From Flavobacteriales bacterium (GTDB taxonomy: Bacteria > Bacteroidota > Bacteroidia > Flavobacteriales > UBA7430), in NCBI GenBank assembly GCA_002692065.1, contig NZJX01000019.1, forward strand, positions 1 to 64,000: a DNA stretch of 64,000 nt. The letters run 5' to 3'. Of the stretch, positions 16,600 to 54,833 are shown piece after piece (positions within the stretch are counted from its first letter, which is position 1; every line of letters starts with the position of its first letter). The notes beneath the pieces are model-generated. The model was not told the origin of the DNA and did no database searches. It saw nothing but the letters and a program-made list of their open reading frames with translations. Both the position numbers and the translations under genes were made by a program.

Positions 16600-17101
16600 A
16601 TTAATAAAAACTATTTTAGCCATAATTTTACTATTAATCTCCATTTTATTATTTATAAAATTGCATATTTTTTTGGGTATTTTATCAATAATATTTTCAA
16701 TATTATCAGTTGTTACTATTTTTAAAAATGAAAAAATTATTTTTGCATTTTATTATTTAAAAAGAAATAAACTAAATAAATCTCTAAAAATATTAGAGTC
16801 AATAAAAAATCCTGAAAATCTTATTAAATCCCAGTATGCTTACTATAATTACTTATTTGGTTTAATATTCTCTCAAATTCAAGTAAATAAATCAGAAAAG
16901 TTTTTTAAAAAAGCATTAAGTATTGGACTAAGAAGTAACACTGATAAAGCAGTTGCTAAGTTAAATCTAGCTGGACTGGCGATAAATAGAAGAAGAAAAA
17001 GAGAAGCTACTATTTTAGTATCTGAAGTTAAAAAATTAGATAAATATAAAATGCTAACTGAGCAAATTAAACTTATTAAAATACAACTTAAAAAAATTTA
17101 G
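16592..17101 (+). CDS. Membrane protein with TPR-like C-terminal part
   Basis: Two N-terminal TM segments, then helical-repeat-like region; 8-nt overlap with nhaC. Confidence 0.45.
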   Translation: MNKLIKTILAIILLLISILLFIKLHIFLGILSIIFSILSVVTIFKNEKIIFAFYYLKRNKLNKSLKILESIKNPENLIKSQYAYYNYLFGLIFSQIQVNKSEKFFKKALSIGLRSNTDKAVAKLNLAGLAINRRRKREATILVSEVKKLDKYKMLTEQIKLIKIQLKKI

Positions 17102-33433: not shown

Positions 33434-34990
33434 ATGAACGAAAATAAATATAAAATAGTATATATTAGTCTAATTGTTGCATTAGGTGGCCTTTTAATGG
33501 GATTCGATGCTTCAGTTATTTCAGGTGTAATTAAGTTTATTGAAATTGATTTTAATTTATCTAAGATTCAACTTGGGTGGGCGGTAAGCTCTTTAACTCT
33601 TACATCAACACTCGCTATGTTTATAGCTGGACCTTTAAGTGATAAATACGGCAGAAGATTAATATTAAAATATTCAGCTATATTATATGCTATATCAGCA
33701 ATATATTCTGCTCTTTCTATAAATTTTACTCACCTTATAATTGCGAGAATGATTGGTGGCCTTGGGGTGGGATCTTCACTTATTATTGCTCCGATGTATA
33801 TAGCTGAAAATTCACCCCCTAAAATAAGAGGAAGAATGGTTTCTTTCAATCAACTTAATATTGTTATTGGTATATCTCTAGCTTTTTTTTCAAATTACTT
33901 CATACTAAATTTATCCAATAATGATATTTTTTATAATTCTATTTTAAATAATAATTCATGGAGAATTATGTTGGGTGTAGAATTTATTCCTGCTATTTTA
34001 TATTTAATTGCTTTATTTTTTGTTCCAAAAAGCGTAAGATGGCTAATTATGAATAATAAAGTTTCAGAAGCTAAAAAAGTAATAAAATCACTTTCCACTA
34101 GCACAAACATTGATGATGAAATAAAAGAAATTCAATTTTCACTTTCTACTGAAACAAACGAAAACAAATTTAATTACAAAGAACTATTTAATCCAATTTT
34201 CAATAAAATTTTAATTATTGGGATTGTAATTGCAATTTTACAGCAAATAACAGGTATAAATTCTGTTTTCTTTTATGCTCCTATGATTTTTGAACAAACT
34301 GGTATTGGAACAAATGCTTCCTTTTCTCAAGCGATTTTAATAGGAGTTATAAATATTATTTTTACGGTTTTAGCTATATCTTTAATTGATAAAATCGGAA
34401 GAAGACCTTTATTGATTTTTGGAGTTACTCTCATAACAATTTCAATGTTAACTTTATCATACAGTTTCAATAAAGCAACATATAAAATTTCTGATGATTC
34501 ATTTTTAAATCTTCCTGAAGAAATTGCTAATTCAGAAAAAATTGATAAAATTCTAAATATTGAATACTCAAATGATATTTTATTCAAACAAGCACTCAAA
34601 GATATTTTCGGAGAAAAAATTGCCAATAAATATGAATCAGATTTAATAAAGTTAGCAATTAAAGCAAATTCCTTAATTATATTAATTGCAATATTATCTT
34701 TTGTAGCATCATTTGCAATCTCTTTAGGACCTGTCATGTGGGTTTTGTTATCTGAATTATTTCCAAATAAAATTAGAGGAATAGCCATTTCATTTGTTGG
34801 ATTAATTAATTCTTCAGTCAGTTTTGTAGTACAATTTTTATTTCCTTGGGAGCTCTCTAATTTAGGTTCATCACTAACATTTTTGATTTACGGTCTTTTT
34901 GCCCTTTTGGGCATTATTTTTGTATATTTCAAAATACCCGAAACCAAAGGTAAATCTCTTGAGGATCTTGAAAAATTGTTAGTTAAATAA
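33434..34990 (+). CDS. Sugar porter family MFS transporter
   Basis: GGLLMGFDASVISG, GPLSDKYGRRLILK, PPKIRGRMVSFNQL, QQITGINSVFFYAPMIFE, IPETKGKSLEDLE. Confidence 0.93.
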   Translation: MNENKYKIVYISLIVALGGLLMGFDASVISGVIKFIEIDFNLSKIQLGWAVSSLTLTSTLAMFIAGPLSDKYGRRLILKYSAILYAISAIYSALSINFTHLIIARMIGGLGVGSSLIIAPMYIAENSPPKIRGRMVSFNQLNIVIGISLAFFSNYFILNLSNNDIFYNSILNNNSWRIMLGVEFIPAILYLIALFFVPKSVRWLIMNNKVSEAKKVIKSLSTSTNIDDEIKEIQFSLSTETNENKFNYKELFNPIFNKILIIGIVIAILQQITGINSVFFYAPMIFEQTGIGTNASFSQAILIGVINIIFTVLAISLIDKIGRRPLLIFGVTLITISMLTLSYSFNKATYKISDDSFLNLPEEIANSEKIDKILNIEYSNDILFKQALKDIFGEKIANKYESDLIKLAIKANSLIILIAILSFVASFAISLGPVMWVLLSELFPNKIRGIAISFVGLINSSVSFVVQFLFPWELSNLGSSLTFLIYGLFALLGIIFVYFKIPETKGKSLEDLEKLLVK

Positions 34991-35012
34991 GTTGATAAAA
35001 TTAAAATTATAG

Positions 35013-37755
35013 ATGAAAAATTTAAATTATAATCTAAATTGGGAATTTACCGATGAGGATGGTTCATTTAAAATTGAAAATGCAATTAATTTACCTGTAT
35101 TATACTTTCCTTTAATGAACACTTATGGAATGAAGTGTTTTGTTACTCCAAATCTTAAAGGTGATATATGTAGAGATTTTCATTCCTATTTAACTACACC
35201 AACAGTTACTGAAGAAATTAAAAAAACTAATGCTTCAAGAAATTTCTGGATTAAAGCTAATGATAAATTACCTTGGTCAGCAACCGGTCAAAGTTCTTTT
35301 CAAAAATCAGAGTTATTTAATGAAAATATAGACATATATTCAGTTTATGGAAAAATTGGAGCATTTATTACAGAGAGACAAAATTTAAATTTAGGAGTAA
35401 AAGTTAAAATAACAATATTTGTACCTGAGGAAGATAATCATGTCGAATTAATGAAAATAGAAGTTACAAATACTGGTTCAAAAGATATTTCAATTACTCC
35501 TTTTTATTCATTACCAATATTTGGAAGATCAGCCGATAATTACAGAGATCATAGACAGGTTACAACTATGTTTCAAGAATGCTTCATTGAAAATAGCTGC
35601 GTAAGAGTAAAACCTAAAATTTTTCATGATGAATCAAGTCATGTTGTCAATAACACAAATTATTACGTTAAAGCTTTTCAAAATGGAAAAAATGTAAAAA
35701 AAATATGGACTAGATTAAATGATTTTACAGGAAACTCTGGTAACCTGGATAATCCAAAAAGTATATATTTCAACGAAGATCCTCCAAAACTGAATAACTC
35801 TGAATTACATGGTGTGGATACAATCGCAGCATTTAAGTTTGACACAATTAAAATTAAACCCAACAAAAAAAGTTTTTACACTGTAATTCATGGAATATCT
35901 AATGATTATAATAAATTAAAAAAAATTTGTAAAAAATATTCAAATGTTAGTAATATTGACAATTCATATAAGGAAACTCTTAAATTTTGGAAAAATAAAA
36001 TATCAAAAAATTTAATCAAAACAGGAAATATACAATTTAACAATTGGGTTAAGTGGATACAATTTCAAGTTAAATGTAGACAAATTTATGGAAATTCATT
36101 TTTACCTGACTATGGTTATGGCAGAGGTGGTAGAGGTTGGAGAGATCTTTGGCAAGATCTGCTTTCAATTTTTTTAGTTGACCCCAAAAGTGGTCATGAT
36201 GAAATTATAAATTGTTTTAAGGGCATCAGAATTGATGGAACGAATGCAACAATAATAGGAGAAAAGAAAGGTGAATTTAAAGCTGATAGAAATAATATCC
36301 CAAGAACATGGTGTGATCATGCAGCATGGCCAGTTTTTGTTTTAAATTTTTATCTTAATCAAACAGGAGACTATGAAATTTTGAATAAAGAAATTACATA
36401 TTGGAAAGATCAATTTGTATACAGAAGTAAGGTTATTGATCCAGAATGGAATTCTAGTCACGGAAATCATCAAAAAACAGTTTCAAATAAAGTTTATACC
36501 TCTTCAATATTAGAGCACCTACTTATTCAACAATTATCATCATTTTATAATGTTAATAATAAAAATATTCTGTTGCTTGAAGGAGCTGATTGGAACGATA
36601 CTTACGATATGGCAAGAATAAATGGTGGAAGTGTATGCTTCTTTAATTTTTATTCTTATAATTTTAAATTACTTTCTGAAATTTTAAGTGTCTTAAAATC
36701 AAAAGGTATTAAGAAAATTAAAATATTGAAAGAATTAGTTATTCTTCTTGACTATTTACCTGGACAATACAGAATTGATTATAATTCTCCGAATGAAAAA
36801 CAAAAATTACTAAAAAAATATTTTGATTCGGTAAAAAATAAAGTAAGTGGAATAAAAACAGATATTTACATTGATGATTTAATAATTGATCTGAAATCAA
36901 AGTCTAAACATATTTTAAATATGATTAGAGATAATGAAATATTAATCACAAATACAGGTTATAAATTTTTTAATGGACACTATGATGATAATTTAAATAA
37001 AATTGGATGTTCAATTGAAAAAAATTTAATGATGGATTTAACTTCTCAAGTGATGCCCATTTTGTGTGAAATTTCTGATAAAAAATTATCAAAAGAAATA
37101 TATAGGTCAGTAAAAAAATATTTAAAAGATAAAGACTCTCCTGGAATAAGATTAACTACCGAATTTAAAAATGTTGATTTAAAAGTAGGAAGAATTACAG
37201 GATTTGTATATGGATATAAAGAACATGGAAGTAAATGGATTCAACAAAATATTATGTTAGCTTACGCTCTTTTTAAAATTGACTTAGTTGATGAAGCTAA
37301 TGAAATTATGAATGATGTTTATGAAATTTGTAATGATCAAAAAAAAAGCAAAAATTTTTCCAGGTATTCCATCTTTTTTTAACTCAGATAACAAAGGATT
37401 GTATTGCTATTTGACAGGATCTTCCTCATGGTATTTATTGACTTTAATTACTCAAATATTCGGAGTACGTGGAGAAAAAGGATATTTAGTTATTCATCCT
37501 AAATTATCCCAAGAATATTTTGATGAAAAAGGTATTTCAATTATTAAAACTTCTTTTTCTTCAATAGATTTTAATATAAAATATACTAATAATAACAATA
37601 AAAATTACCATACATACAAGATTAAAAATTTTACTGTTAATGACAAAATAATTTCTAAAGAGTTCGTGAAAATTACTGATCGAAAAATTATATTTACTAA
37701 TAATAAAATATTTAATAAAAATTCTGAAAATAAAATAAAAATAAACTTAGATTGA
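35013..37755 (+). CDS. GH94-type (GH36-like clan) glycoside phosphorylase, frameshifted near 37339-37347
   Basis: GYGRGGRGWRDLWQDLLSIFLVDP, WCDHAAWPVFVLNFYLNQTGD, LEGADWNDTYDMARINGGS; downstream ORF continues with NDQKKAKIFPGIPSFFNSDNKGLY..YLTGSSSWYLLTLI if A9 is read as A8. Confidence 0.85.
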
Positions 37756-37761
37756 TCTAAT

Positions 37762-39087
37762 ATGAAAAAATTAACATATTTCTACATATTATTATCCTTT
37801 AATATTTCTTTACATTCCCAATCAAATATTTCAGATCAATTTTCATTACCAATTGATTTTGAAAATGGTTTTGATTTTGAAGGATATGTTTTTGCAGACT
37901 TTGATGGAGCAACTACTACAGTTGTTGAAAACCCTCAAGTTGATTTAAATAATTCTAGTATCTATGTTGGAAGACAATACAGAATAGATGGTCAATGGTT
38001 TGGTGGCAGTACAATTTTGTTATCTGATACTCTTGATTTTGCTTACAATAATACATTTAGAATGAAAGTTCTGAGTAATAGAAATGATGTTCCAATTCAA
38101 TTAAAACTTGAGGGAGAAAATGGCCAAATTGACTTTGTTCAAGTTACAAGAACAAATTCTTTAGCCAATACCTGGGAAAATATCGATTTTTATTTTGGTG
38201 AACAAAGTTCATCAAAATATATTAAAATCACCATGATTTTTGATATTGGTTCTTATGGAGATGGAACTGATAGTTCAACCTTTTACTTTGATGATATTGA
38301 ATTCATATACACTCAACCTGATATAAATGATTTTCCAATAAATTTTGATGATCAAGATATTAATTATCAATTCCTTGATTTTCAAGGTACTTACACAACA
38401 ATTCTACCAGATAAAGATAATCAATTTAACAATGTCGCAAGAACTACAAAAGGAAATGGTGCAGTAAACTGGGCTGGAACAGTAATTGGGACGAATGGAT
38501 ATTTATTAGGGGATTCTATTCCTTTTTCAGAAAATAATACAAAAATGCACATGCGTATAAAAATACCATCATCTTTTATAGTAGCAAAAATTAAACTAAA
38601 AGTTGAAAATGGTTCAAATTCAAATATCTATGTTGAAACTGACGCATATGCAATAAGTGGAGGACAATGGGAAGTAATAGAATTTGATTTTAATAATGTT
38701 TCTATTGATGATGAAAGTCAAACAACATTAGATTTATCCAATAATTACAATAAAATTATAATATTCTTCGATTTTGACAATGAAGGAAATGAGGATTATT
38801 TTTATTGGGATGATCTCTCATTCGGTGAAATACCTCCAGATTTTAATTTAAATAATAATAATAATAATAACAACCTAACAATTTATCCAAACCCCTCTTC
38901 AGACTATATTATGATTGAAGGTAGATTAAATCACAAATTAAAATTTTATAATACTGATGGAAATCTTGTAAAAGAACATAATGATAAATTGAATAAAATA
39001 GATATAAAAGATTTGAAACCAGGGTTGTACTATCTTAAAATCATAGATAATGGTAATACTTTAATCAAAAAATTTATTAAAAACTAA
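37762..39087 (+). CDS. T9SS-exported protein with two glycan-binding-like beta-sandwich domains
   Basis: Two related halves (LPIDFENGFDFEGYVFADFDG.../FPINFDDQDINYQFLDFQG...), C-terminal LTIYPNPSSDYIMIEG...LKPGLYYLKIIDNG..KKFIKN type A sorting signal. Confidence 0.75.
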   Translation: MKKLTYFYILLSFNISLHSQSNISDQFSLPIDFENGFDFEGYVFADFDGATTTVVENPQVDLNNSSIYVGRQYRIDGQWFGGSTILLSDTLDFAYNNTFRMKVLSNRNDVPIQLKLEGENGQIDFVQVTRTNSLANTWENIDFYFGEQSSSKYIKITMIFDIGSYGDGTDSSTFYFDDIEFIYTQPDINDFPINFDDQDINYQFLDFQGTYTTILPDKDNQFNNVARTTKGNGAVNWAGTVIGTNGYLLGDSIPFSENNTKMHMRIKIPSSFIVAKIKLKVENGSNSNIYVETDAYAISGGQWEVIEFDFNNVSIDDESQTTLDLSNNYNKIIIFFDFDNEGNEDYFYWDDLSFGEIPPDFNLNNNNNNNNLTIYPNPSSDYIMIEGRLNHKLKFYNTDGNLVKEHNDKLNKIDIKDLKPGLYYLKIIDNGNTLIKKFIKN

Positions 39088-40427
39088 TGAATAAAAAAAA
39101 ATTAATTTTTATAATAACAGTCTTTATTATTAGTTTCTCTAATTATGCTCAAGAAAATAAAGTTGAAATAATTAAGATAAATAACAATTGGAAATTATTA
39201 AGAAATGGTATTCCCTACTATATTAAGGGTGCTGGATGTGAAGATCTAAAATATTTCAAGCATCTTGCTGATGCTGGTGGTAATTCAATTAGAACTTGGT
39301 CTCCTGATAACGGAAGAGAAGTTTTAGATAAGGCTCATGAATTAGGTCTAACTGTTATGATGGGTTTGTGGGCTGGACAAGAAAGACAGGGATTCGATTA
39401 CGACAACGAATCTGCAGTAAAAACACAACTAAATTACTTCAAATCAGTTGTTAAAAAATATAAAGATCATCCTGCATTATTGTTATGGGGAGTTGGAAAT
39501 GAAGTTGATTTGTTTTATACAAATACTAAAGTATGGGATGCTATACAAGATATTGCTAAAATGATCCATGAGATTGATCCTAATCACCCAGTTACTACTG
39601 TTACTGCAGGTCTTGATCCAGTTGAAGTTAAATTAATTCAAGAAAAGGCACCAGATATAGATATCTATTCTATTAATACTTATAGAGAAGTTTGTTCTGC
39701 AAGTAATGTAATTCGTAAAGCTGGTTGGAATAAACCTTATCTTTTTGCTGAATGGGGACCAGCAGGTCATTGGGAAGTTAGAAAAACTATGTGGAATGCT
39801 CCTATTGAACAAAACAGTCATGAAAAAGCATTACAATATGTAGATAGTTATGAATGTATAATTGAAGATACTAGTATGTGTCTTGGTTCTTACACATTTC
39901 TTTGGGGACATAAGCAAGAAGTTACATCAACATGGTATGGAATGTTTACCAAAAAAGGTCAAATTACTGAAGTTATTGATTACGTAACTAATTGTTGGAC
40001 TGGAAAATTTCCCTTAAATTTAGCACCTAGTGTAGATAGCGCAAAAATTGAAAATTTTAGTAAGTATGATAATATTCAATTAATTTGTGAGGAAATATAT
40101 CAAGGTGAAGTATATGCTAAAGATGACAATAATAAACTAAAATTTTCATTTAAAATATATCCTGAGAGTACTGTTGAAGCAGTTGGTGGTGATTTTCAAG
40201 ATGAAATTCCATCTATTCCGGGCTTAATTAAAAAATCAAAGATTAATGAAGTAAGGTTTATGGCACCAAAAAATGAAGGTGCCTATAGATTATTTATATT
40301 TGTTACTGATGACATTGATAAAATTGCATATGCAAATATTCCATTTTACTCTAATCCCAGACCTGATAATATGAAACAAAGACAAAAAATAAAACTTAAA
40401 ACAAGAAGGTTAAAATTGAATGAGTAA
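39087..40427 (+). CDS. Clan GH-A (GH2/GH5-like TIM barrel) glycoside hydrolase
   Basis: YIKGAGCEDLKYF...GGNSIRTWSPDN, LLLWGVGNEVD (acid/base), PYLFAEWGPAGHWEV (nucleophile); N-terminal signal peptide. Confidence 0.75.
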   Translation: MNKKKLIFIITVFIISFSNYAQENKVEIIKINNNWKLLRNGIPYYIKGAGCEDLKYFKHLADAGGNSIRTWSPDNGREVLDKAHELGLTVMMGLWAGQERQGFDYDNESAVKTQLNYFKSVVKKYKDHPALLLWGVGNEVDLFYTNTKVWDAIQDIAKMIHEIDPNHPVTTVTAGLDPVEVKLIQEKAPDIDIYSINTYREVCSASNVIRKAGWNKPYLFAEWGPAGHWEVRKTMWNAPIEQNSHEKALQYVDSYECIIEDTSMCLGSYTFLWGHKQEVTSTWYGMFTKKGQITEVIDYVTNCWTGKFPLNLAPSVDSAKIENFSKYDNIQLICEEIYQGEVYAKDDNNKLKFSFKIYPESTVEAVGGDFQDEIPSIPGLIKKSKINEVRFMAPKNEGAYRLFIFVTDDIDKIAYANIPFYSNPRPDNMKQRQKIKLKTRRLKLNE

Positions 40428-42390
40428 TTTAGATTTTAAAATAATTACAAAAATATTTCTTCTTACATTCTTTATTAATATGTCCTCAGTCTATTCTCAA
40501 AATGAAGATATAAGTATAGAAGAAATTGGATTATTTCCAAAAAAAGAAACAGATAATCTATATAGTTTTAAGGTGAGTGGTGAATATCGTTTCTTTTCAA
40601 CTTACAGATATCTAGATTTCCCATTTCAATTAAGTCAATTTTCTGATGATAAAACATTAAGAAGGAATATTTTTATAAATGATGATAGTCAATTCCCTAA
40701 TTTATTTTTGAGATTTTCAGGTAGGCCTAACTTAAAAACATCTTGGGGTTTTGATCTTTTTACATTTCAATTTTTAGAGGGAAATATTGGACCTTCGTAC
40801 AGTAATCAGATAAGTAATGATAATTTACCATTATTATATGATCCTATAATTGGTAACAGACTTGCAGGTCAATTTGGTCTTAATTTGGGAATGAATTTAT
40901 ATGGTAACTTTGATACTCAATATGGTTCTATTGAATTTAAAGCTGGAGGAATTCATTGGGCTTCATTAAGTCCATTTACGTTAGCAACTTTTAATCAAAA
41001 TCCCAGATTATCTGGTTTAGGAACATATTCAGCATTTGAAAGAGACCCTTGGCACCCAATAGGTTCGTCCGTAGAACAAAGATACAATGATTTTTTTAAG
41101 ACAGGTAATATTCAACAAGGTGAAAGATGGGGAGAAAAAGCCTTTACAGGAATTATTCTTGAGGCAAGCAATTTACCAAAAAACTTGAGTTTTATTTTAC
41201 TTTATGGAAAAACAGAATTAAATGGAGGTTTTTCCTATCTTCCTAATAATTCCTTTGGAGGTCAAATAAGAAAAAATTTTCCTAGTGGAAATTTTATTGG
41301 TATTAATTCATTTAATTCAAATACATTTGTTGATAGTGCTGGTAATCAAAACTTTGGATTCAATATCCATACAGTTGAATCAAACTTTAATTTATCTAAA
41401 TTAAAACTAAATTTTGAATTAGGACAAGGAAGATATATTTCTGAATCAGGAAAGGGAAATTGGGGAGAAGCAATGTATGTTGAAATATCTCCACCTAAAT
41501 TGACAAAAAGAATAACAATATTGACACAGTTATTTAGGGTTAGTCCAAATGTTATCAATAATAATTCTGTATTTTTTAATACTTCTATAAATCAAAGTTC
41601 ATCAATTATTCAAGATAATTCGGTTGGAAGTACTACTCTACTTCAACCATTTGCAAGTTCAATTGTACCACTTGGGCAAATGACAAACAACAGAAAAGGA
41701 ATTTCCTCGAATATACTGATAGAATTTGATAGAATGAATTTTAATCTAGGAATAGGATCATCTTCAGAGTTAAGGCCTATAAGCAATCAAATTACATATT
41801 CACATCAAGTAAATCAATTAACAAGATCTAGATTTTGGAGATGGAATTTTCCCCAAGGAGTTGGACCATATGGAAATCAAAATGTAATTTTTAGAGATGT
41901 TTATGAGACAATAAATCTTACAGATGACCAATTAGGAGAAGTAATAAATAAAAAATATTTCAGTCTTGTTGAATTATCAACAAAATTTCGTCCTAGATTT
42001 TCAATGGGTAGATTATATTTATTCTCTATAACTAGACTAATTTCCTCTCAAAATTATTGGTCATACCTACCTATTTTTAATGAAAATGCTTATGTTCGTC
42101 AATATAATCAAGAGATTGAGGCTTATTATGCTATTAATAGTAAATTCATATTAAGTGGTTATTCAGGATTTGAAAGAACTATAGCAAATTATAATACTGA
42201 GTTAAGTCCGGATTCTGGTAAACCAAGAAATCAAATAGGAACAGGTTATGGATTGGGTTTAGATATAACAATATCAAAAAATACTGCTCTTTATTTTAGA
42301 CATAGATGGTTCTTCTTTGAAGATAAAAGCTTTGAATTGCACAAATTTAAAGGTACAGAAACAATTATTGAACTAAAAACTTTATTTTAA
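40420..42390 (+). CDS. Predicted outer-membrane beta-barrel protein 1
   Basis: Signal peptide, long amphipathic beta-strand-like sequence, C-terminal aromatic (..ELKTLF); no plug or SusC motifs. Confidence 0.65.
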   Translation: MSNLDFKIITKIFLLTFFINMSSVYSQNEDISIEEIGLFPKKETDNLYSFKVSGEYRFFSTYRYLDFPFQLSQFSDDKTLRRNIFINDDSQFPNLFLRFSGRPNLKTSWGFDLFTFQFLEGNIGPSYSNQISNDNLPLLYDPIIGNRLAGQFGLNLGMNLYGNFDTQYGSIEFKAGGIHWASLSPFTLATFNQNPRLSGLGTYSAFERDPWHPIGSSVEQRYNDFFKTGNIQQGERWGEKAFTGIILEASNLPKNLSFILLYGKTELNGGFSYLPNNSFGGQIRKNFPSGNFIGINSFNSNTFVDSAGNQNFGFNIHTVESNFNLSKLKLNFELGQGRYISESGKGNWGEAMYVEISPPKLTKRITILTQLFRVSPNVINNNSVFFNTSINQSSSIIQDNSVGSTTLLQPFASSIVPLGQMTNNRKGISSNILIEFDRMNFNLGIGSSSELRPISNQITYSHQVNQLTRSRFWRWNFPQGVGPYGNQNVIFRDVYETINLTDDQLGEVINKKYFSLVELSTKFRPRFSMGRLYLFSITRLISSQNYWSYLPIFNENAYVRQYNQEIEAYYAINSKFILSGYSGFERTIANYNTELSPDSGKPRNQIGTGYGLGLDITISKNTALYFRHRWFFFEDKSFELHKFKGTETIIELKTLF

Positions 42391-44108
42391 TGACTAAAAA
42401 AAATATATTATATCTAATGATGTTTATTTCAACATCATCAATTTTTTCTCAGACTACTGAAAAAAAATTTTGGTTATCTGGATTGTCACGTGGATTATTT
42501 AATATTGATAATATTAATTCAATGAATGATACTATATCTCTAAAAAAAGCAGAATATGGACACACACTTGTTGACTTATCAGCAAATATTAAACCTAACA
42601 GCAATACATATATTAGAAGCTCAATAAGGGTTCGAAATGAATATGGTGGATTCTGGGGATCTGGGGTAACATTTGATTTAAGAGAATTATATCTCAGAGG
42701 ATTGATATCTAATTCAATACGATACCAAATTGGAGATATGGATTATAAAATGACTCCATTTACGTTTTATAATAATTCTGAAAGATTTTACTCTAATTCA
42801 TTAGATATATTTGGGATTTATAATAATATTATTGATTATGATAATTTTTATTTTGATAATAACACATGGAGACAACAAGGTGGAGCGATCGATTTTAGTT
42901 TATCATTTAATAAAAATATTGATGAAATGAAATTTAATTTTTTCACCTCTAGAATTAACACAAGTGATTTTAATTCCATTAATGATAGAATATTTTTTGG
43001 AACTAATATTTCAATAATTCAAAGCGAAAAATTAAATCTGGGGTTAAATTATATTAACTTGAAAGATATATCTGGAACATCACTAAATAATAATTATTAT
43101 AAAAATCCAGTTTTTACCGGGACTTATAACTTTACAAAAAAATCAGAAGATTTTGAACTCAATTTAAAAGGTGAAAGTGGATTTTCTAATGTAGATATTG
43201 AAAATACGAGTGAATTTGAAAAACTAAGTGACTATTTTAACTATTCAAAATTAACTTTTAAATACCTTCCTTTAGATTTAACTTTTAAATTTTCCTACAG
43301 AAATGTTGGACAAAATTTTAGAAGTGTTGGCTCCCAGATGAGAAGATTAAATTATTCTACTCAAGGATATACATTTAATAGATATACTAATGACTTAGTT
43401 ATAAGACCAATTGGTATTTGGGATATTTATAACGATGCTTCTTTATTCAATAATCAAATTCAAGTTGGTCTTGATAATTTTTATCCTCAATATAATAATA
43501 TTGATCCATATGGGTTATCCACTCCCAACAGAAAAGGATTTAATTTTGAATTAGTTAACTCAAATAAACATAAAAAATATGACTTTACTATTTACTTTAA
43601 TAATCTTTCTGAAATAGTCGGTGTTGGAACAAATAATACAAGAAACTATAAAACATATGGTTTTAACTTTAATTCTAATCTTGCTAATTTTATGAATTTT
43701 AATAAATCCCTTATGTTACAATTAAATTATAATTTTGACAAAACCAAAAGAAATTCAAATACTCCTAGTGATTCATATTTAAAATCTAATTTAAATACTT
43801 CTAAATTACAAATAGGATTGAATTATCAAATCTCAGGAGATTTTTATGTGATATCAGGTTATGAAAGAATTTGTTCTAGTGGAAAAGACCATATTTCTAT
43901 TAGAAATCAATATGATCAAATTAATAACTTAAGGTATTATGAAACAAATCTTAATGAAGAAATTTTTGGACTTGGTTTTGAATATAAATTTGATTCTAAA
44001 AATAATTTGAAATTTATTTGGCAAAATTATAATTGGAGTGACCAATTAACACTACTACCAGATTATGAATTTTCGAGGTTTTCCTTAATTTATATAATGA
44101 AATTTTAA
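42390..44108 (+). CDS. Predicted outer-membrane beta-barrel protein 2
   Basis: Signal peptide, YGHTLVDLSANIKPNSNTYIRSSIRVRNEYG, repeating amphipathic strands, C-terminal FSLIYIMKF. Confidence 0.65.
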   Translation: MTKKNILYLMMFISTSSIFSQTTEKKFWLSGLSRGLFNIDNINSMNDTISLKKAEYGHTLVDLSANIKPNSNTYIRSSIRVRNEYGGFWGSGVTFDLRELYLRGLISNSIRYQIGDMDYKMTPFTFYNNSERFYSNSLDIFGIYNNIIDYDNFYFDNNTWRQQGGAIDFSLSFNKNIDEMKFNFFTSRINTSDFNSINDRIFFGTNISIIQSEKLNLGLNYINLKDISGTSLNNNYYKNPVFTGTYNFTKKSEDFELNLKGESGFSNVDIENTSEFEKLSDYFNYSKLTFKYLPLDLTFKFSYRNVGQNFRSVGSQMRRLNYSTQGYTFNRYTNDLVIRPIGIWDIYNDASLFNNQIQVGLDNFYPQYNNIDPYGLSTPNRKGFNFELVNSNKHKKYDFTIYFNNLSEIVGVGTNNTRNYKTYGFNFNSNLANFMNFNKSLMLQLNYNFDKTKRNSNTPSDSYLKSNLNTSKLQIGLNYQISGDFYVISGYERICSSGKDHISIRNQYDQINNLRYYETNLNEEIFGLGFEYKFDSKNNLKFIWQNYNWSDQLTLLPDYEFSRFSLIYIMKF

Positions 44109-44118
44109 AAATAATAAA

Positions 44119-45109
44119 ATGAAAAAAATAATAATAATTATTACAGTTCTTCTATTAATGTCATGTGAGAGGGAAAATGATATTTTAGGTCCCTCATTAA
44201 ATGATATTTATGGAGAATTTAATATAATTGAAAAAACTTGATATAAGTAATAGAAATGTTGATTTTGAAAATAGTCAAATTGTCTATTTTACTGCTGAAT
44301 TTTCAAAAACAGTTGATTGGCAAATTAAAATAAAAGGTAACATTTCTGGTGCTGAGAAAATTATAAATGGTTATTCCAGAATAATTAATGAGAATAACTC
44401 ATTATGGGATGGTTCAACTACAAACCTACCTTTTTTTAAAATTGAAGATTGTAATGTAGAATTGTATATTCCTTCTGATTCTTTATTTTTTTATGATAAT
44501 AATTTAACTATTTTATCAACTAAAGTTTTTGATGGACTGATAGTTGCTGATTTTGAAAATGGATTAAATCCTAATTGGATTCCATTTGTTCAAGCTGGTA
44601 CTAATATGAGTTTTAATATAATTAATGATAATGCTCCTGAAGGAAATTCTTATTATGATATGGGTGGAGATGTCGATTGGGACTGGCTTATTGGGATGAT
44701 AGATTTTCCTGCATCAGCATATGGTCAAAATACTTTCAATTTAAATGATAATCCAGATCAAGTATATTTTAATTTATTACTTTACTTACCCGAAAATTTA
44801 ATAAATCCTCCTCTTGTTTTATTTCAATTTAAAGAAGATGATAATTTGGATAATGAATTTACTCCTGGAATTGAAGACATGTATTCAATCGAATTAAGAG
44901 AGTTTAAATTAGGATGGCAAATAATTTCAATTAAATATTCAGATTTATTAACCCTTTCTAATGGTGCTACTGTTGAACCTGATGGAGACGGTATTATGAA
45001 TCCAGATAAATTAAACATGATATCAATGCTATTTCTAGCTCAACAAGGAGCTGGTTATAGTCAAGTTTACGTAGATTACTTAATTTTTACCGAAAGTCAA
45101 CCTCTTTAA
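44119..45109 (+). CDS. Lipoprotein, candidate surface glycan-binding protein; frameshifted in the A6 run at 44231-44236
   Basis: MKKIIIIITVLLLMSCERENDILGPSLNDIYGEFNIIEK joins ORF 44228..45109 (LDISNRNVDFENSQIVYF...) if A6 is read as A5; DFENGLNPNWIPFVQAG jelly-roll-like region. Confidence 0.6.
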
Positions 45110-45111
45110 AT

Positions 45112-46338
45112 ATGAATATCTTAAAAAAAATATTTCTGTTTTTTATCCTAATGATTATAAATTCTTGCATGAATTTAAAACAAGTAAATTTATTTGATGA
45201 GAAATCAGACCAAGTAATTAAAAAATCAATTGAGAACTTTTATTCATTATCAATATTTAATGATAATATTAATGGTGAACATTGGTGGACAGAGTCTGGT
45301 AATTCAACATTAACTATACCTTTTTTAAAAAATAAAAAAATATTAAATAATGATATTGATCAAAGTTCAAGTTGGATAAAGAAAGCAAATGTATGCTTAG
45401 AAATTAAGTCAATTGAAAATATATTTTTTTCAGGTAGCAAATGTATGCATTGGAAATGGAATAAAAATGCGGGAAATTGTGAGTGGCTGGGTATGGGTTT
45501 TGGATGGGATAGTTGGCAAGGAAAGGATATGAGTAATATAATAGATAAAGCTGCAATTCAGTTAAAAGTAAGATCTGTTAAGGGGATCCTTAAATCTTTA
45601 CCTTTAGCTGCTTGTCTTGAAGATTATTCAGGGACTCAACTTTGGATAGGTTTTAAACCTCAAACCATTGAATCTTCAGTTGTTTCTGAAGAATGGTCAA
45701 ATGTAATACTACCAATTAGAGAATTTGAGTGGGAAATTGCACCAAATTTTGATCCAAGTAATGTTAAACAATTTATTGTTCAATTTGAAGCTGAAGGAGA
45801 AATATATGTAGATCAAATTGAAGTAATTCCTTATGATGGAGGTTTTGACAATAGGATATATGTTAACAAAGTAAATGATAAATCATATATTTCAGAGAAA
45901 GACACATGGGATAAAACAGATTTAATTAATATTTCAAATTCAACAATACAAACAATTGTAGACAACAACAACATTTATTTTAAAGTTACTTCTGATAAAG
46001 ATATTAAATCTTTAGAAATTGCTTTTTCTTCCAATTATAAATTACCAAGAAAAAGGAAATATATGTATTCAAGTGATAACCACATAAATATTAATTTTAA
46101 AAATAATATCGTTGAAAATTTAAAGACCAGTATATTAGTAGATGCAAGTATAAATAATCAAAAAAAATCTTTTGATATAATTATACCATTTAGCGAATTA
46201 AATTTTGAAAATTTTGAACAAAATAAAGTCTATAAAATAGAATTTGGAATTACTGAAGAAAATATCAAAAAAGTTTGGAATTTATCACAAGAAAACTTTA
46301 ATAATCCTTCCCTGTGGGGAGAAATGGTTATCAAATGA
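45112..46338 (+). CDS. Lipoprotein with carbohydrate-binding-like beta-sandwich domains
   Basis: Lipobox LMIINSCMN; SKCMHWKWNKNAGNCEWLGMGFGWDSWQGKD...IYVDQIEVIPYDGG. Confidence 0.55.
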   Translation: MNILKKIFLFFILMIINSCMNLKQVNLFDEKSDQVIKKSIENFYSLSIFNDNINGEHWWTESGNSTLTIPFLKNKKILNNDIDQSSSWIKKANVCLEIKSIENIFFSGSKCMHWKWNKNAGNCEWLGMGFGWDSWQGKDMSNIIDKAAIQLKVRSVKGILKSLPLAACLEDYSGTQLWIGFKPQTIESSVVSEEWSNVILPIREFEWEIAPNFDPSNVKQFIVQFEAEGEIYVDQIEVIPYDGGFDNRIYVNKVNDKSYISEKDTWDKTDLINISNSTIQTIVDNNNIYFKVTSDKDIKSLEIAFSSNYKLPRKRKYMYSSDNHININFKNNIVENLKTSILVDASINNQKKSFDIIIPFSELNFENFEQNKVYKIEFGITEENIKKVWNLSQENFNNPSLWGEMVIK

Positions 46339-47165
46339 AAATATTTAAAAAAAATATAATTTTTTTTATTTCAATTTTATTATTTTTCATAAAATGTGAA
46401 TTACCTTCCCCACCACAAGAATCAAATGGAGAATTAATATTTATCGACGATTTTAATGGAAATGAAATTAATACATCTAAATGGAAACATGATATTGGAA
46501 ATGGTTCATATGGTTGGGGAAATGGAGAAATTCAATTTTACCAACCAGAAAATACTTCAGTCAGCAATGGCACATTAAAAATTATTGCTAAAGAAGAATC
46601 TGGTCAAAATATAGTTAATGAATGGGGAAATCCATTAAACTATACCTCATCAAAAATTAAAACAGATGGATTATTTAACTTTAGATACGGTAGAGTTCAA
46701 GCTAAAATTAAAACACTTGAAGGGGTCGGTTTCTGGCCTGCATTTTGGATTTTACCTTCAAACTCTGATTGGCCCTGTGATGGAGAAATAGATATTATGG
46801 AACAATTATGGGTATTTAATGGTAATTCAAATATTTCTACAGGAGCAGCTCATGTTGGAAATTGCCCCTACTCTCCTTCTAATCATCAATATAAATCATT
46901 TCAAAAAAATATTTCACCTGAGAGATTTTCTGAAGATTTTCATATATATGAAATAAGATGGGAACCAAATTATATTGCATGGTATATTGATGATGAATTT
47001 GTTTATTCAGTAACACCTGAGGACTATAGCTCAGAATATGAATGGCCATTTAATAGAGGACAATGGTATTTAATATTAAACTTAGCAATTACCAATTCGG
47101 GCCCAAATGATAACACCCAATTTCCCTCTCAATTAGAAATTGATTGGGTAAAAGTATATAATTAA
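46335..47165 (+). CDS. GH16 family endo-beta-glucanase (laminarinase-like)
   Basis: Catalytic CDGEIDIMEQ; FNGNEINTSKWKHDIGNGSYGWGNGEIQFY; FWPAFWILP; lipobox FFIKCEL. Start set to 46335 (ATGA overlap) rather than 46314. Confidence 0.92.
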   Translation: MKIFKKNIIFFISILLFFIKCELPSPPQESNGELIFIDDFNGNEINTSKWKHDIGNGSYGWGNGEIQFYQPENTSVSNGTLKIIAKEESGQNIVNEWGNPLNYTSSKIKTDGLFNFRYGRVQAKIKTLEGVGFWPAFWILPSNSDWPCDGEIDIMEQLWVFNGNSNISTGAAHVGNCPYSPSNHQYKSFQKNISPERFSEDFHIYEIRWEPNYIAWYIDDEFVYSVTPEDYSSEYEWPFNRGQWYLILNLAITNSGPNDNTQFPSQLEIDWVKVYN

Positions 47166-49439
47166 ATGATGAAATATAATTTATATATAATATTTTTTTT
47201 AATAATCTTTTCTTCTAATAAACATGAAAAAATTAATAATTCTTTCGATAAAAAAATTGATAGTTTATTGATGCAAATGTCTTTGAAAGAAAAAATTGGA
47301 CAAATGACACAAATTGGAATACCAGCTATATGCGTACAAAAAAATTATTGGGATTATATGGATACTTTGGTAATTGATACTAAAAAATTAAATTTTTTTA
47401 CTAATGTCAAATATGTTGGTTCCTTTGTAGGTAAAGGTTACTACCCACCAAGTAAATATGAATATTTTAATATTATAAGTCAAATCCAAAATTATGTTGC
47501 TAATAATTCAAGACATAAAATACCTATACTTTATGCAACTGATGGGGTACATGGAGCAAATTATACAAAAAATTCAACATTATTTCCCCACCAAATAGGA
47601 ATGGCAGCAACATGGAATTATGAATTAATTAAAGATGTTTCAAAAGTTACTGCATATGAATTAAGAGCTTCAAATATACCATGGAATTTAGCTCCTACTG
47701 CAGATATTTCTTGGCAAGGTAGATGGGGAAGAATATGTGAAACATATGGAGAAGATCCCTATCTTGTCTCTATGATGACAAAGGCGTTTATTGAAGGTGG
47801 AACAAGTAATGAAATTAATGAATTTGAAACAGCACTTTGTGCAAAACACTTCATTGGATATGGTGGATCGCAATATGGAAATGACAGAAAAAATGCTTTT
47901 ATCTCTGAAAGATTTTTAAGACAGTATTACTTACCTCCATTTATATCAGCAATTAATAATGGGGTGCAATCAATAATGATAAGCTCTGGAATGATAAATT
48001 CCATTCCTTGTCATACAAACAAAAATCTAATTACAAATATTCTAAAAAAAGAGTTTAAGTTTGATGGAGTTGTAATATCAGATTGGGGTGATATGCAATT
48101 TTTAAAAGATTTTCATAAAACTGCAGAAAATTACAAAGAAGCTACATATCAGATAATTAATGCTGGAATTGATATATGTATGGTTCCATATGATGCCTCA
48201 TTCTCTGATTACTTGTTTGAATTAGTAAATGAAAAAAGAATTCCAATTTCAAGAATAAATGATGCTGTAAGAAGAATATTAAAATTGAAATTTAAATTAA
48301 ATCTTTTTAAAGTACCTAATACTAACCCTAACAATTATCCGAGATTTCAAAGTAAAACTTCAATTGATCTTAGTTATAAATCTGTTTCTGAGTCAGTTAC
48401 ACTACTTAAAAATAAAAAAAAATTACTACCAATTAATCAAAATAAAAAAGTATTTATTACGGGAGTTGCATCAAATTCATTAAATTATTTAAATGGTCCA
48501 TGGTCACGAACATGGAGTGGTCAAGACACTATATATAATGATTCAAATAAGAATACTATACTAGAATGCATTCGTAATAAAATTGGTAGGGAAAATGTTA
48601 TGTTTAATAATGGGGTTTCTTTTGATGAAGTCAAAGACTATAATAAAATAATTTCTGATTCTAAAAAGTCTGATATTATCATAGTTTGCCTTGGTGAAAA
48701 ACCCTCCACTGAGAGACCTAGTGATATAAAACAACTTTCATTTCCAAAATCTCAAATTAATTTAGTAAAAACTTTAAGCAAGGCTGAAATACCAATTATC
48801 TTACTCTTATTTGAGGGAAGAACACTAAATATTACTGAAATTGAACCGTTAGTAGATGCTATAATTATGTGTTATTACCCTGGTGATAATTCTTCTGACG
48901 CAATTATTGATTTAATATATGGAGATATTAATTTCTCTGGAAAATTACCATATACCTATCATAAAAGCCTAACAACTACAATGCCCTATATTCATACAAT
49001 AACTGACAGGTCAGATAACTATGGTGGATATACTGATTATGATCCACTTTATCAATTTGGTTACGGACTATCTTATTCAAATTTTCAGTATGATTCAATA
49101 TATTTAAATAAAAAAAGAATATCTATCAGTGATAGTATACAAGTAAAAGTTAAAATCAAAAATAACTCAAAATATAATGGAAAAGAAGTTGTTCAATTAT
49201 ACTTGCAAGATGAATACGCTAGTATTGATCCTGACTTTGAGAAATTAATTAGATTTAAAAAAGTAGATTTTAAACCAATGGAAACTAAAATTATAAGTTT
49301 TACTATTTATCCAAAAGATTTATCGTTTATTAATTATGATAATACTAAGATAATTGAAAATGGATTTTTTTATTTAAAATCTGGGGACAGAAAAAATCAA
49401 ATCATAAAAGAAAAATTTAAATTAACAGATTATGATTAA
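47166..49439 (+). CDS. GH3 beta-glucosidase
   Basis: SLKEKIGQMTQIG, YATDGVHGANY, CAKHFIGYGGSQYGNDR, FDGVVISDWGDM (nucleophile), YPGDNSSDAIIDLIYGDINFSGKLPYTY, FGYGLSYSNF. Confidence 0.95.
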   Translation: MMKYNLYIIFFLIIFSSNKHEKINNSFDKKIDSLLMQMSLKEKIGQMTQIGIPAICVQKNYWDYMDTLVIDTKKLNFFTNVKYVGSFVGKGYYPPSKYEYFNIISQIQNYVANNSRHKIPILYATDGVHGANYTKNSTLFPHQIGMAATWNYELIKDVSKVTAYELRASNIPWNLAPTADISWQGRWGRICETYGEDPYLVSMMTKAFIEGGTSNEINEFETALCAKHFIGYGGSQYGNDRKNAFISERFLRQYYLPPFISAINNGVQSIMISSGMINSIPCHTNKNLITNILKKEFKFDGVVISDWGDMQFLKDFHKTAENYKEATYQIINAGIDICMVPYDASFSDYLFELVNEKRIPISRINDAVRRILKLKFKLNLFKVPNTNPNNYPRFQSKTSIDLSYKSVSESVTLLKNKKKLLPINQNKKVFITGVASNSLNYLNGPWSRTWSGQDTIYNDSNKNTILECIRNKIGRENVMFNNGVSFDEVKDYNKIISDSKKSDIIIVCLGEKPSTERPSDIKQLSFPKSQINLVKTLSKAEIPIILLLFEGRTLNITEIEPLVDAIIMCYYPGDNSSDAIIDLIYGDINFSGKLPYTYHKSLTTTMPYIHTITDRSDNYGGYTDYDPLYQFGYGLSYSNFQYDSIYLNKKRISISDSIQVKVKIKNNSKYNGKEVVQLYLQDEYASIDPDFEKLIRFKKVDFKPMETKIISFTIYPKDLSFINYDNTKIIENGFFYLKSGDRKNQIIKEKFKLTDYD

Positions 49440-50475
49440 TAAAGTTTATTTATTTACACTTATTTTCTTAGGAATTTCTTCATGTAACAATGATAAAATT
49501 AAAAATTATAAAAATAAAATTTCAACATCAGATAAATGCTCGATTAATGCATATTTATTTGGAGAAAACGGGAGAATATTTCCTAAAAATTATAAAGAAA
49601 TCATTAAAAATTATGAAGATTTAATTTGTAATGAATTAGAATATGTTATGTGGTATCCTACTTTTTCTGATAATTTCCCAATTAAAGATTGCGAAAAAGT
49701 TAAAAAACTCGGAAAGACTCCTCACTTAACATGGGAATTTTACTTTTCTGATTCAACAAATTACCAATATATGACACAACCAATTAAAAATGAATATTCC
49801 TTGATGAATGAAATTTTAGAGGGTAAGCATGATAAATACTTAAATAAATTTGCTAATGATGTTAAAAAATATAATGGTAACATACTAATAAGGCCACTTC
49901 ATGAATTTAACGGGAATTGGTACTTGTGGAGCGGATTTAAAAATGGTAAGAATAAAGGAGGTCCGGATAAAGTAGTATCAGTATGGAGATATGTGGTTGA
50001 TATATTTATCAAGAATCAAGTAAGTAATGTTAAATGGGTGTGGAATCCTCACGGACCAAGTATTGATATGACAAAGGATAACTGGAATAAAATTTCAAAT
50101 TACTGGCCTGGTGATGATTATGTTGACTGGATTGCGATGGATGCATACAACTGGTATCCAAAAGATCCATGGGGAGGAGAAAGACCATTTAGAGACTTTG
50201 ATAATTGTTTTAAAAAACTTTATAATGAGTGTATTAAAATATCAAAGAACCACCCGATAATGATTGCTGAATTTGGTTCACCAGAATTTAATTTTAAAGA
50301 TCAAAATAAAGCACTTTGGATAAAAGACGCATTTTACAAAATAAAAAATGAGTATCCATTAATTAAATCAGTGACATGGTTTCAAATAAATAAAGAATTG
50401 GACTGGAGAGTAAATTCAAGTAAAGAATCACTTATTGAATTTAAAAAAGCAATTTCAGATAGTTATTTCTATTAA
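49432..50475 (+). CDS. GH26 family glycoside hydrolase (lipoprotein)
   Basis: ILIRPLHEFNGNWYLWSG (acid/base), VKWVWNPHGPSID, IAMDAYNWY, PIMIAEFGSPE (nucleophile); lipobox GISSCNN. Confidence 0.85.
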   Translation: MINKVYLFTLIFLGISSCNNDKIKNYKNKISTSDKCSINAYLFGENGRIFPKNYKEIIKNYEDLICNELEYVMWYPTFSDNFPIKDCEKVKKLGKTPHLTWEFYFSDSTNYQYMTQPIKNEYSLMNEILEGKHDKYLNKFANDVKKYNGNILIRPLHEFNGNWYLWSGFKNGKNKGGPDKVVSVWRYVVDIFIKNQVSNVKWVWNPHGPSIDMTKDNWNKISNYWPGDDYVDWIAMDAYNWYPKDPWGGERPFRDFDNCFKKLYNECIKISKNHPIMIAEFGSPEFNFKDQNKALWIKDAFYKIKNEYPLIKSVTWFQINKELDWRVNSSKESLIEFKKAISDSYFY

Positions 50476-51554: not shown

Positions 51555-54500
51555 TTAATAAGAAAAACTATTTGATAAATATAATAATACAGATTCTTGA
51601 TTTGTTTTTAATTGATATCCTTTGGAAGGAGTAAGGTCACCTATTCCATTAAAATTAAACTCGGGAAGATATGCAGAGCCAGAATAATCTTTAACGATAA
51701 TTAATGCATTATTATCTACTAATTCATTCATTACTAGATCTACAGGTGAGGGAGAAATTCTTAAATATCCAATTATATTCCAACCTTGATTCAATGAAAT
51801 AGGGTTGTTTTCAGGCACTAAATATTCACCATCAATCATAATTGTTAATGAACTATTTAATTTAATTTGATATCCACTACCAATATTAATATTTCCTATA
51901 CCATTGAAATTGAATTCAGGTAAATATGCATTACCTTCATAATCTTTAATTATAACTAAATTTTCTACAAAATCTGAAAATATGAAATCTAAACTAGTAT
52001 TAGAAGGATTCATGTAAGTAGAAAACATTGACCATCCTGCTGGAAAATTGATCTCTTGATTTACAGGAAAAATATTATCTGAAATAAAATCACTTATAAA
52101 TGTTATACCATTGGAAGTATAATATTCAGGACCAGATGTATAAATAGGGTTAACAATATATTCATTGCATAAAGAAGGATCCCAGACTAAAAAATTAAAT
52201 TCTTGACCATAAATTAATCCCTCAATTTCATCTGTTGAAGAATCATCTCCCATTACTGCTATCTGAATAGTTCCATCCTCAATTAATGAATATCCAGCGC
52301 ATTGATTTTCTCCATAATTATCAGTGTAAAATACACCAATTGAAGATCCTTCAGAAAAAGAATTTTCATTGTCACTTATAATTGAACCTTGAATAAATAT
52401 TGAATGATTTTGATCTGTTACAACTATATTCCAGGGAAAGTCACAATCATAATTACAAGAATCATTGTCAATATCAGCAAGTGGATTATAATTATTTGAA
52501 CTTGAATCTGTACAACCTAATATTGGACATCCAATTGTACTTGGATAAAGAGAACAATAGTCTTCATATGACATACATTCGGAACAAGCAAGACATGATG
52601 CAGTAATTGCAGCACAACATACTTGAGGACAATAATTACATGTTCCATTGTCAAAATTTGCATCAATATTAAAATTAATAGCTAAAGAATCTGTACAACC
52701 AAATATAGAGTCTACAGAATTTGCACAAAATTGAACCAAAAGATCCTCATTTTGTAGAGTAAAACCGTAATAAGAATCATTATTATTTTGAATAAAGTCA
52801 CAGTTTGAGTTCATTAGGGGTTGAATTAAAAATGAAGAATTTTCAGGGTCTGAATTAAATGTGTTAATGTTATTTACACATTGTATAAAATACTCATAAG
52901 ACCCATTCTCTAATTCAATTGAAAAATTGTTTGCAAAAGTAACTCCCCATCCTGAAAAATTATTAAAATCACCTGATATGTTAATTAAACCATTACAATT
53001 GATATCAGATACATCAAAAGTTACTTCATTTAATGATGAAGGTGGTATCATTTGCGAATAAGTTGTATAAGCCAATCTTGGATTTCTGTGAATATCAACA
53101 ATTCCAAACCATTCTTCACTAACAAATTCATCAAGAAAACCACCAGTAGACCAAGATGATAGTTCATCATGAATTGCCCAATCACCTCCATTATGTTTCC
53201 ACCATTCGTCATTCCATTCAAATACCATACCTCCAGTGCAATTTGAAAAACCACTTTCATTAATTGATGCATTATTATAAATTTCGTTAGTTAGGCTTTC
53301 AACAATTAATGATTGATATTCTTCATTAACTGAATCTCCTACTGTATGGAATGCATCAATTCCATATTCAGATAAATAAAATGGTTTGTTTGTTGAGTTA
53401 TTCCACTGTTCAAATAAACTTAAAAATGATTCTCCAACATATAAATTTAATCCATAGATATCAACATTATTTAATGTATTAAAGGTATTTTCGTCAGGAA
53501 TCCAACCACCCCATGTGGTCGATATTAGTCTTGTAGAATCATTATATTTAAGTTGAGATGTAAGATAATCTACTACACTTAGAGCTTCAGAAAAATTGGA
53601 AAAAATAGATGAGGAAAGATTAGTAAGATTCCACTCATTTCCAACTTCCCATCCAATAATTGCAGGATGTTGTTTTAACTCACATAATCTATCAAATGTA
53701 TTTTCAAGAGGTTCATCATAACCGAAATAAATAACAGAAATTACATAAATACCATGATTATAAAGAACATCTAAAGCGTATTCGTCAACAACTCCATATG
53801 TTCTTACGATATTTATTCCAGCAGCTTGCATTAAAGGTGCATCTTGATCAACAAATTGGGAAAAATAAGAAGGATTTCCGTTATCTAACCCAGGACCACC
53901 TCCTATAGGAGTTGGTGACCAGCAAACACCTTTCATGTGAAAAGCTTCATTTCCAATTATTATTTTATTATTTTCAATTCTAACTGATTCTTCCCTACCT
54001 GGTGAACTAAAACAACTTGATTGTAAAAGATTTTCAAATGAACAAGAGCCATCATTAAGTACTGCCAAAGGATTATAATTTGAAGCATATGAATTTGTAC
54101 ATCCAGATAGGACTGATTCAGAATTACAAAATTCTACTTCTATATTATTATTTGATACTGAAAATCCAAAATTACCAAAGTTATCATTTGGATTAAAATC
54201 ACAAGTAGAAAGAACTTCAGAATTAATAACAGTTGAATTGTTCCAAACATTATTCCAGAAATTTGGAATACTGGTATCAATACATAAATACACAAATTGA
54301 TAGTCGCCAGGTTGCAAATTAATTAAATAATTATTATCAGGGTGGGCACCCCATCCACTCCAGTTATCAAATTCTCCTGAAATATTAATTTGCCCTTCAC
54401 ATTCAATATCATCTACTAAAAAGTTAACTGAATATAATTCATCAATACCAAGAATACAATTACTGGGATTTAATACAATATTATTATTAACTATAAAACC

Positions 54501-54833
54501 AAAATTGGTAAAACTATCATCAGGATTAAAATCACATGATGATCCTTGCTCTGGTTCATAAATAATTGAATTACTCCAAGGATCATTAAACCAATTAGAG
54601 TTAGAAGTATTAATACACAAAACTTGATATTCATAACTACCACTATTTAGTTCAATAGTATGATTATTATTAGGATTAGCTCCCCATCCGCTCCAATTAT
54701 CAAATGAGCCTGTAATATTAATTTGGCCGTTACAATCAATATCATCCACTAAAAATTCAACCTGAAAAACTTCATTATTATTTTGACTAAATAAGAAATT
54801 ATTTATAAAAAAAAGAAATAAAATTATTCTCAT
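51555..54833 (-). CDS. Modular secreted clan GH-A hydrolase with three FDNWSGWG-type beta-sandwich repeats, GCTD..NYNP repeats and two C-terminal repeats
   Basis: Clan-A core FHMKGVCWSPTPIGGGPG..GWEVGNEWN..PFYLSEYGIDAF; repeated CNGQINITGSFDNWSGWGA; GCTNSYASNYNPLAVLNDGSC; repeated KDYxGxAYLPEFNFNGIG. Confidence 0.8.
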   Translation of the reverse strand: MRIILFLFFINNFLFSQNNNEVFQVEFLVDDIDCNGQINITGSFDNWSGWGANPNNNHTIELNSGSYEYQVLCINTSNSNWFNDPWSNSIIYEPEQGSSCDFNPDDSFTNFGFIVNNNIVLNPSNCILGIDELYSVNFLVDDIECEGQINISGEFDNWSGWGAHPDNNYLINLQPGDYQFVYLCIDTSIPNFWNNVWNNSTVINSEVLSTCDFNPNDNFGNFGFSVSNNNIEVEFCNSESVLSGCTNSYASNYNPLAVLNDGSCSFENLLQSSCFSSPGREESVRIENNKIIIGNEAFHMKGVCWSPTPIGGGPGLDNGNPSYFSQFVDQDAPLMQAAGINIVRTYGVVDEYALDVLYNHGIYVISVIYFGYDEPLENTFDRLCELKQHPAIIGWEVGNEWNLTNLSSSIFSNFSEALSVVDYLTSQLKYNDSTRLISTTWGGWIPDENTFNTLNNVDIYGLNLYVGESFLSLFEQWNNSTNKPFYLSEYGIDAFHTVGDSVNEEYQSLIVESLTNEIYNNASINESGFSNCTGGMVFEWNDEWWKHNGGDWAIHDELSSWSTGGFLDEFVSEEWFGIVDIHRNPRLAYTTYSQMIPPSSLNEVTFDVSDINCNGLINISGDFNNFSGWGVTFANNFSIELENGSYEYFIQCVNNINTFNSDPENSSFLIQPLMNSNCDFIQNNNDSYYGFTLQNEDLLVQFCANSVDSIFGCTDSLAINFNIDANFDNGTCNYCPQVCCAAITASCLACSECMSYEDYCSLYPSTIGCPILGCTDSSSNNYNPLADIDNDSCNYDCDFPWNIVVTDQNHSIFIQGSIISDNENSFSEGSSIGVFYTDNYGENQCAGYSLIEDGTIQIAVMGDDSSTDEIEGLIYGQEFNFLVWDPSLCNEYIVNPIYTSGPEYYTSNGITFISDFISDNIFPVNQEINFPAGWSMFSTYMNPSNTSLDFIFSDFVENLVIIKDYEGNAYLPEFNFNGIGNINIGSGYQIKLNSSLTIMIDGEYLVPENNPISLNQGWNIIGYLRISPSPVDLVMNELVDNNALIIVKDYSGSAYLPEFNFNGIGDLTPSKGYQLKTNQESVLLYLSNSFSY

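Follow-up and report, generated by a model that had tools for sequence, protein, structure and literature searches.

Judging by the anatomy of the two proteins and the company that their genes keep, we consider it rather likely that A and B, which are encoded side by side in the 64,000-nucleotide stretch of DNA analyzed here (the window), carry out outer-membrane import for a module of the polysaccharide utilization locus (PUL) kind that is independent of SusC/SusD, here for laminarin-type β-1,3-glucan. The two genes lie in a tight run on the plus strand (positions 33434 to 50475). It starts with an MFS-type inner-membrane sugar transporter (33434..34990; a 12-TM-like open reading frame [ORF] assigned to its family by eye, with homologues in other cassettes), a GH94 phosphorylase (35013..37756; PF17167 and PF06165), a secreted β-sandwich protein with a type IX sorting tail (37762..39087; PF18962, 1.7e-12, and TIGR04183) and a TIM-barrel hydrolase of 446 aa (39087..40427). 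These are followed by A (40420..42390), B (42390..44108), the lipoproteins LP1 (44119..45109) and LP2 (45112..46338), a GH16 laminarinase-like enzyme with a lipoprotein-type N terminus (46314..47165), a GH3 β-glucosidase (47166..49439; PF00933, PF01915 and PF14310) and a GH26-like lipoprotein enzyme (49432..50475; PF02156, 4.8e-10). From the secreted protein through the GH26-like gene, the spacings range from -25 to +10 bases. Beside the operon, the minus strand (51555 to 54833) encodes a protein of 1,092 aa that has a TIM barrel of the GH2 type as well as weak glycogen-binding-like repeats.

Two genes of the run are frameshifted. The GH94 gene is interrupted near position 37370, with its C-terminal part in another frame, and a relative (locus L062) has an intact protein of 916 aa. 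LP1 had been predicted as a single lipoprotein ORF, which did not hold: the frame from the ATG at 44119 stops near 44241, and the remainder lies in another frame, with the shift near 44230. Intact copies of LP1 are present in relatives, and assembly error, decay or slippage may be the cause. With two frameshifted genes, the copy in the window may be defective or misassembled; that both fall within one operon hints at indel errors in the assembly. The genome from which the window comes (G000) is 92% complete, with an estimated contamination of 6.8%.

The enzymes point to the substrate. The TIM-barrel hydrolase matched PDB entry 9oro, "Glycoside hydrolase family 158," over residues 19 to 420 with an E value of 1e-87 and is thus listed here as a GH158 endo-β-1,3-glucanase; its Pfam match is limited to a TIM barrel of the GH2 type. 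The GH16 enzyme (PF00722, 2.5e-21) is closest to the endo-β-1,3-glucanase 2vy0 (4e-43) and the laminarinase 3azx (7e-41). The same set of GH16, GH158 and GH3 is found in the 1,3-β-glucan locus of Bacteroides uniformis, together with extra glycan-binding lipoprotein(s), and import there proceeds via a TonB-dependent SusC homologue with SusD (PMC7157763). From the identities of GH158 and GH16 and this shared enzyme set, a laminarin-type β-1,3-glucan is the likely substrate. However, where the B. uniformis locus has SusC and SusD, the window operon has A, B, LP1 and LP2.

As originally predicted, A (656 aa) and B (572 aa) are a pair of ORFs that overlap by 1 nucleotide: at the junction, TTTTAATGAC, the stop codon TAA and the start codon ATG share one base (TAATG). 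This overlap is also the commonest A-B spacing among relatives (36 of 104 loci). Both N termini are hydrophobic and end in SQ, which by eye looks like a signal peptide, and both proteins end in a C-terminal F, a residue kept in 126 of 136 A relatives; F or L ends 120 of 122 B relatives. The claim that neither protein belongs to a named family was likewise confirmed, with no Pfam or NCBIfam match at E ≤ 1. The family profiles of A and B matched no PDB chain at E ≤ 10. PF13505 matched 3 of 55 members of the A family, the A of the window not being among them, and a few B relatives gave weak matches to PF13505, OmpA or DUF2490. The plug domain PF07715 was found in neither A nor B in a Pfam scan of the window proteins and their relatives, and a plasmid search with B gave no match.

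Is A indeed a barrel? AlphaFold2 modelled it from a 55-row alignment with a pLDDT of 79.3 and a pTM of 0.80, and by our count the model has 22 strands at least nine residues long. Since only about 28 residues separate the first strand from the predicted signal peptide, A should have no plug. Foldseek retrieved porins and TonB receptors with E values of about 1e-6 to 1e-7, and an usher and LptD were also among the matches listed; the query-normalized TM score was at most 0.40 among the 50 matches listed, and a search of viral structures returned generic barrels only. With porins and TonB receptors as matches and TM scores this low, A appears to be a barrel without a close solved relative. A strong match to a characterized barrel of unrelated function, which would have counted against the original prediction, was thus not found. 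Residues 176 to 246 of A, which include the longest insertion between strands, hold 14 of the 54 invariant positions versus 6 expected, and our guess is that this stretch might narrow or gate the pore. For B, the single-sequence AlphaFold2 prediction had a pLDDT of 28 and is worthless as a model. The β-alternation z score was 4.7 for B, 3.1 for the modelled barrel A, 4.3 for the β-sandwich protein LP2 and below 1 for GH3 and GH158. B is likely an outer-membrane barrel as well, to go by its sequence features, although the β-sandwich protein LP2 displays them too. Of the predicted pair, A is supported as a barrel by a good model, and the sequence features of B are compatible with one.

Large Bacteroidota barrels beside polysaccharide genes are often of the exopolysaccharide export or attachment type, and A and B might thus act, in a Wzi- or AlgE-like manner, on a β-glucan made by the cell itself. 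We consider this very improbable. A Wzi- or AlgE-type identity was rejected for want of a matching family model or fold: PF14052 (Wzi) matched neither A nor B, in the window or in relatives, and no AlgE or Wzi was among the 50 Foldseek matches listed. Moreover, neither a glycosyltransferase nor a synthase was seen among the cassette genes, and the neighbors of A and B encode sugar importers, hydrolases and a phosphorylase.

The lipoproteins differ in what can be said of them. LP1 has a lipobox-like motif but no family or PDB match. The window copy of LP2 gave a weak CBM30 match (E of 0.024), a relative scored above the cutoff for both CBM30 and CBM9_1, and the LP2 family profile matched the CBM9-like chain 7nwn of a xylanase (2e-6); LP2 is thus annotated as a lipoprotein with CBM30-like and CBM9-like domains. 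In many cassettes, a further lipoprotein of about 280 aa, with a GPGPN motif and without a Pfam match, is encoded after LP2 or GH3 (for example, L097, positions 15808 to 16635).

A and B had originally been noted to sit where SusC and SusD would be expected. No match to SusD (PF07980) was found anywhere in G000, with a model that gave matches in the positive control Bacteroides ihuae but may miss divergent SusD proteins. PF07980 was absent from 28 of 62 cassette genomes, G000 included; the genomes that do have it mostly carry it on other contigs, and the shortest distance to a cassette on a shared contig is about 17 kb (G783). The plug domain PF07715 had 18 matches in G000, none of them within the window (C15:1-64000). 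Measured against a canonical SusC/SusD PUL, no match to SusD or to a plugged SusC was found at the locus, and the colocated hydrolases and lipoproteins are present (GH158, GH16, GH3, GH26, GH94, LP1 and LP2). The data fit a replacement to this extent, and A, B and the lipoproteins probably replace the SusC/SusD import machine. In one genome (G876, locus L301), ORFs that by eye resemble SusC and SusD lie with a GH16 gene directly upstream of the cassette. ORFs of about 970 aa beside some cassettes had been considered as SusC because of their size and were rejected: one is a Y_Y_Y/Reg_prop sensor in Pfam, and another has only regulator matches in NCBIfam.

The pairing of A and B was then assessed across genomes, with loci gathered by A or B alone and never by enzyme. 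After removal of A sequences at least 95% identical, 117 loci were left. Of the 105 dereplicated loci with room for B, 104 have it directly after A in the same orientation; the sole exception has a spurious opposite-strand ORF in between. LP1 comes next after B in 93 of 97 loci, and LP2 is fourth in order in 76 of 89. The conserved A-B-lipoprotein module can be regarded as secure. Already among 99 related genomes, relatives of A occur in 22 and of B in 21, next to each other and in constant order on every contig that extends far enough, which is more than chance.

Pairwise distances of A correlate with those of B (r of 0.88), LP1 (0.89) and LP2 (0.86) and less with those of GH158 (0.77) and GH3 (0.74); these correlations largely mirror shared species history. 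The values bear on the idea, to which we give little weight, that A or B alone serves as the channel, the other being a barrel for structure or glycan adhesion or else a scaffold that holds the lipoproteins. It would account for A and B being unrelated in alignment and unequal in size, and a good barrel model exists for A only. The strict pairing and the near-equal codivergence, however, suit a complex, although they are silent on the roles within it.

The original prediction that the pair co-occurs with glycoside hydrolases was borne out almost completely. In the 59 loci flanked by 6 kb on either side, a GH158-like gene lies within eight genes of A in 51, GH3 is present in 39, GH16 in 26 and at least one of the three in 55. 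The four others are L228, with a GH9 enzyme with CelD_N; L231, with GH18; L229, with GH97 and GH13; and L183, in which the neighboring stretch is masked. Conversely, GH158 was found in 20 of the 22 genomes with A versus 4 to 6 of the 77 without A (Fisher P of about 1e-13, the genomes not being independent). In a tree of A, the GH9, GH18 and GH97/GH13 loci, labelled by their neighboring genes, share one supported branch, and eight sulfatase loci fall on another; the sulfatase-type loci also retain GH158.

Individual cassettes show further features. The chitin-type locus L231 (6160 to 16784) encodes a GH18-OmpA fusion, A, B, two LP1-like lipoproteins and two glucosamine-6-phosphate isomerases, one of which is a fusion with a PIG-L deacetylase. 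Ahead of GH158 there is often an ORF for a NUDIX protein that has a winged helix of the NrtR/AraR type (L097, 6155 to 6925, and similar ORFs elsewhere), a possible regulator of the cassette that would respond to sugar phosphates or NAD. In a close relative, the β-glucan cassette is full of stops and broken frames (L069, G007:C2:152000-171000). G000 itself has a second, divergent A-B cassette with flanking sulfatases in two near-identical copies (L077 and L078; C2:24113-27682 and C7:221310-224879), which, given the 6.8% contamination, may be a strain duplicate.

Across the phylum, 6 of 393 genomes have A-type genes, including the genome of the window and four of another class, as do 22 of 395 genomes of a near-complete class sample. 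They occur in 49 of 120 genomes of the order around G883 and in all 10 of the order around G541, with up to five B copies each. When named genomes were scanned with the A profile, 195 loci were obtained, nearly all from Bacteroidota metagenome-assembled genomes (MAGs), plus the isolate Phaeocystidibacter luteus LMG 25704 (L097); 80 of the loci were kept. The same scan with B alone found nothing. The copies in the other class keep the type IX-like protein, A, B and LP1, and L182 also has LP2, GH158, GH16 and GH3.

From these data the following path can be proposed. The surface endoglucanases GH16 and GH158 would cleave the glucan, and LP1 and LP2 would retain its chains or fragments there. Oligosaccharides would then enter by way of A, the plugless barrel, together with B and be degraded by GH3 and the GH94 phosphorylase, and the MFS symporter, replaced by an SSS-type transporter in other loci, would bring the products into the cell. 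Since A and B lack a TonB plug, the oligosaccharides would cross by diffusion, drawn by their breakdown in the periplasm and by uptake across the inner membrane. In this scheme we infer the barrel nature of B, the contact between A and B, the direction of transport, the substrate and the energetics. It is unlikely that the pair is instead a secretion or surface-assembly platform that exports or displays the hydrolases and lipoproteins of the operon. The two barrels do adjoin two lipoproteins and surface enzymes, and loss of the outer-membrane protein CHU_1277 or CHU_1276 in Cytophaga hutchinsonii lowered the cell-associated β-glucosidase activity (PMC5553014). However, a dedicated secretion route is already at hand, given the type IX sorting tail on one operon member; by its fold, A is nearer to porins and TonB receptors than to a secretion barrel in particular, even with the usher and LptD in the list; and inner-membrane sugar transporters are present in many cassettes. 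Sugar import is the preferred reading for A and B, and the original proposal of an oligosaccharide porin pair, which might be passive or gated by lipoproteins, is partly supported.

It is common practice to identify and count PULs via the susC/susD pair, and one study filed CAZyme clusters without susC/susD under a separate heading (PMC10108472). Laminarin eaters that use A and B would thus be missed or misscored, and the overlooked lineages would include small-genome aquatic Flavobacteriales and Chitinophagales-like MAGs. A and B represent two protein families that lack a Pfam or NCBIfam model; both could be given names and be used in searches. More broadly, and at slightly less than even probability in our estimate, A/B with LP1/LP2 could be a second general machine for polysaccharide import across the Bacteroidota outer membrane, independent of SusC/SusD and TonB, ancient in the phylum and retooled by hydrolase swaps for β-1,3-glucan, cellulose, chitin or α-glucan, with the cellulose cluster of C. 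hutchinsonii as a member. For the unexplained SusC/SusD-free cellulose uptake of that organism, the module offers a testable family-level frame.

How does the module compare with known systems? SusC-type TonB-dependent receptors have about 22 strands, as A does, and several are among its Foldseek matches, but they carry a plug, which A lacks. Chitoporin and OprD/Occ-type porins, which are among the best matches of A (5mdq, 7vu2 and 4fms), would model passive oligosaccharide uptake; they are, however, much smaller (290 to 440 aa), with TM scores of 0.25 to 0.32 to A, less than 11% identity and no sequence relation. In a literature search that covered few subscription journals, the β-1,3-glucan type was not described, and the only precedent found was chu_1276-1280 of C. 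hutchinsonii, an atypical PUL for cellulose without SusC/SusD that is reported from three closely related species (PMC12016534). It encodes two outer-membrane proteins, of which 1276 is predicted to be TonB receptor-like, the glycan-binding proteins 1278 and 1279, the latter with 375 aa and two CBM-like domains, and the endoglucanase 1280; 1276, 1277, 1279 and 1280 were reported to be important for cellulose use (PMC12016534). By description, the order and protein types are those of the module: two outer-membrane proteins, two glycan-binding proteins and an endohydrolase nearby. Since the comparison is one of descriptions, we file the module beside that system rather than inside it. The C. hutchinsonii type has been reported only from three cellulolytic species, whereas the module occurs in many families of at least two classes, mostly with β-1,3-glucanases. 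The layout of chu_1276-1280 is copied by the GH9 loci L227, L228 and L230, which have A, B, LP1, a lipoprotein of 380 aa and a GH9 enzyme with CelD_N in this order.
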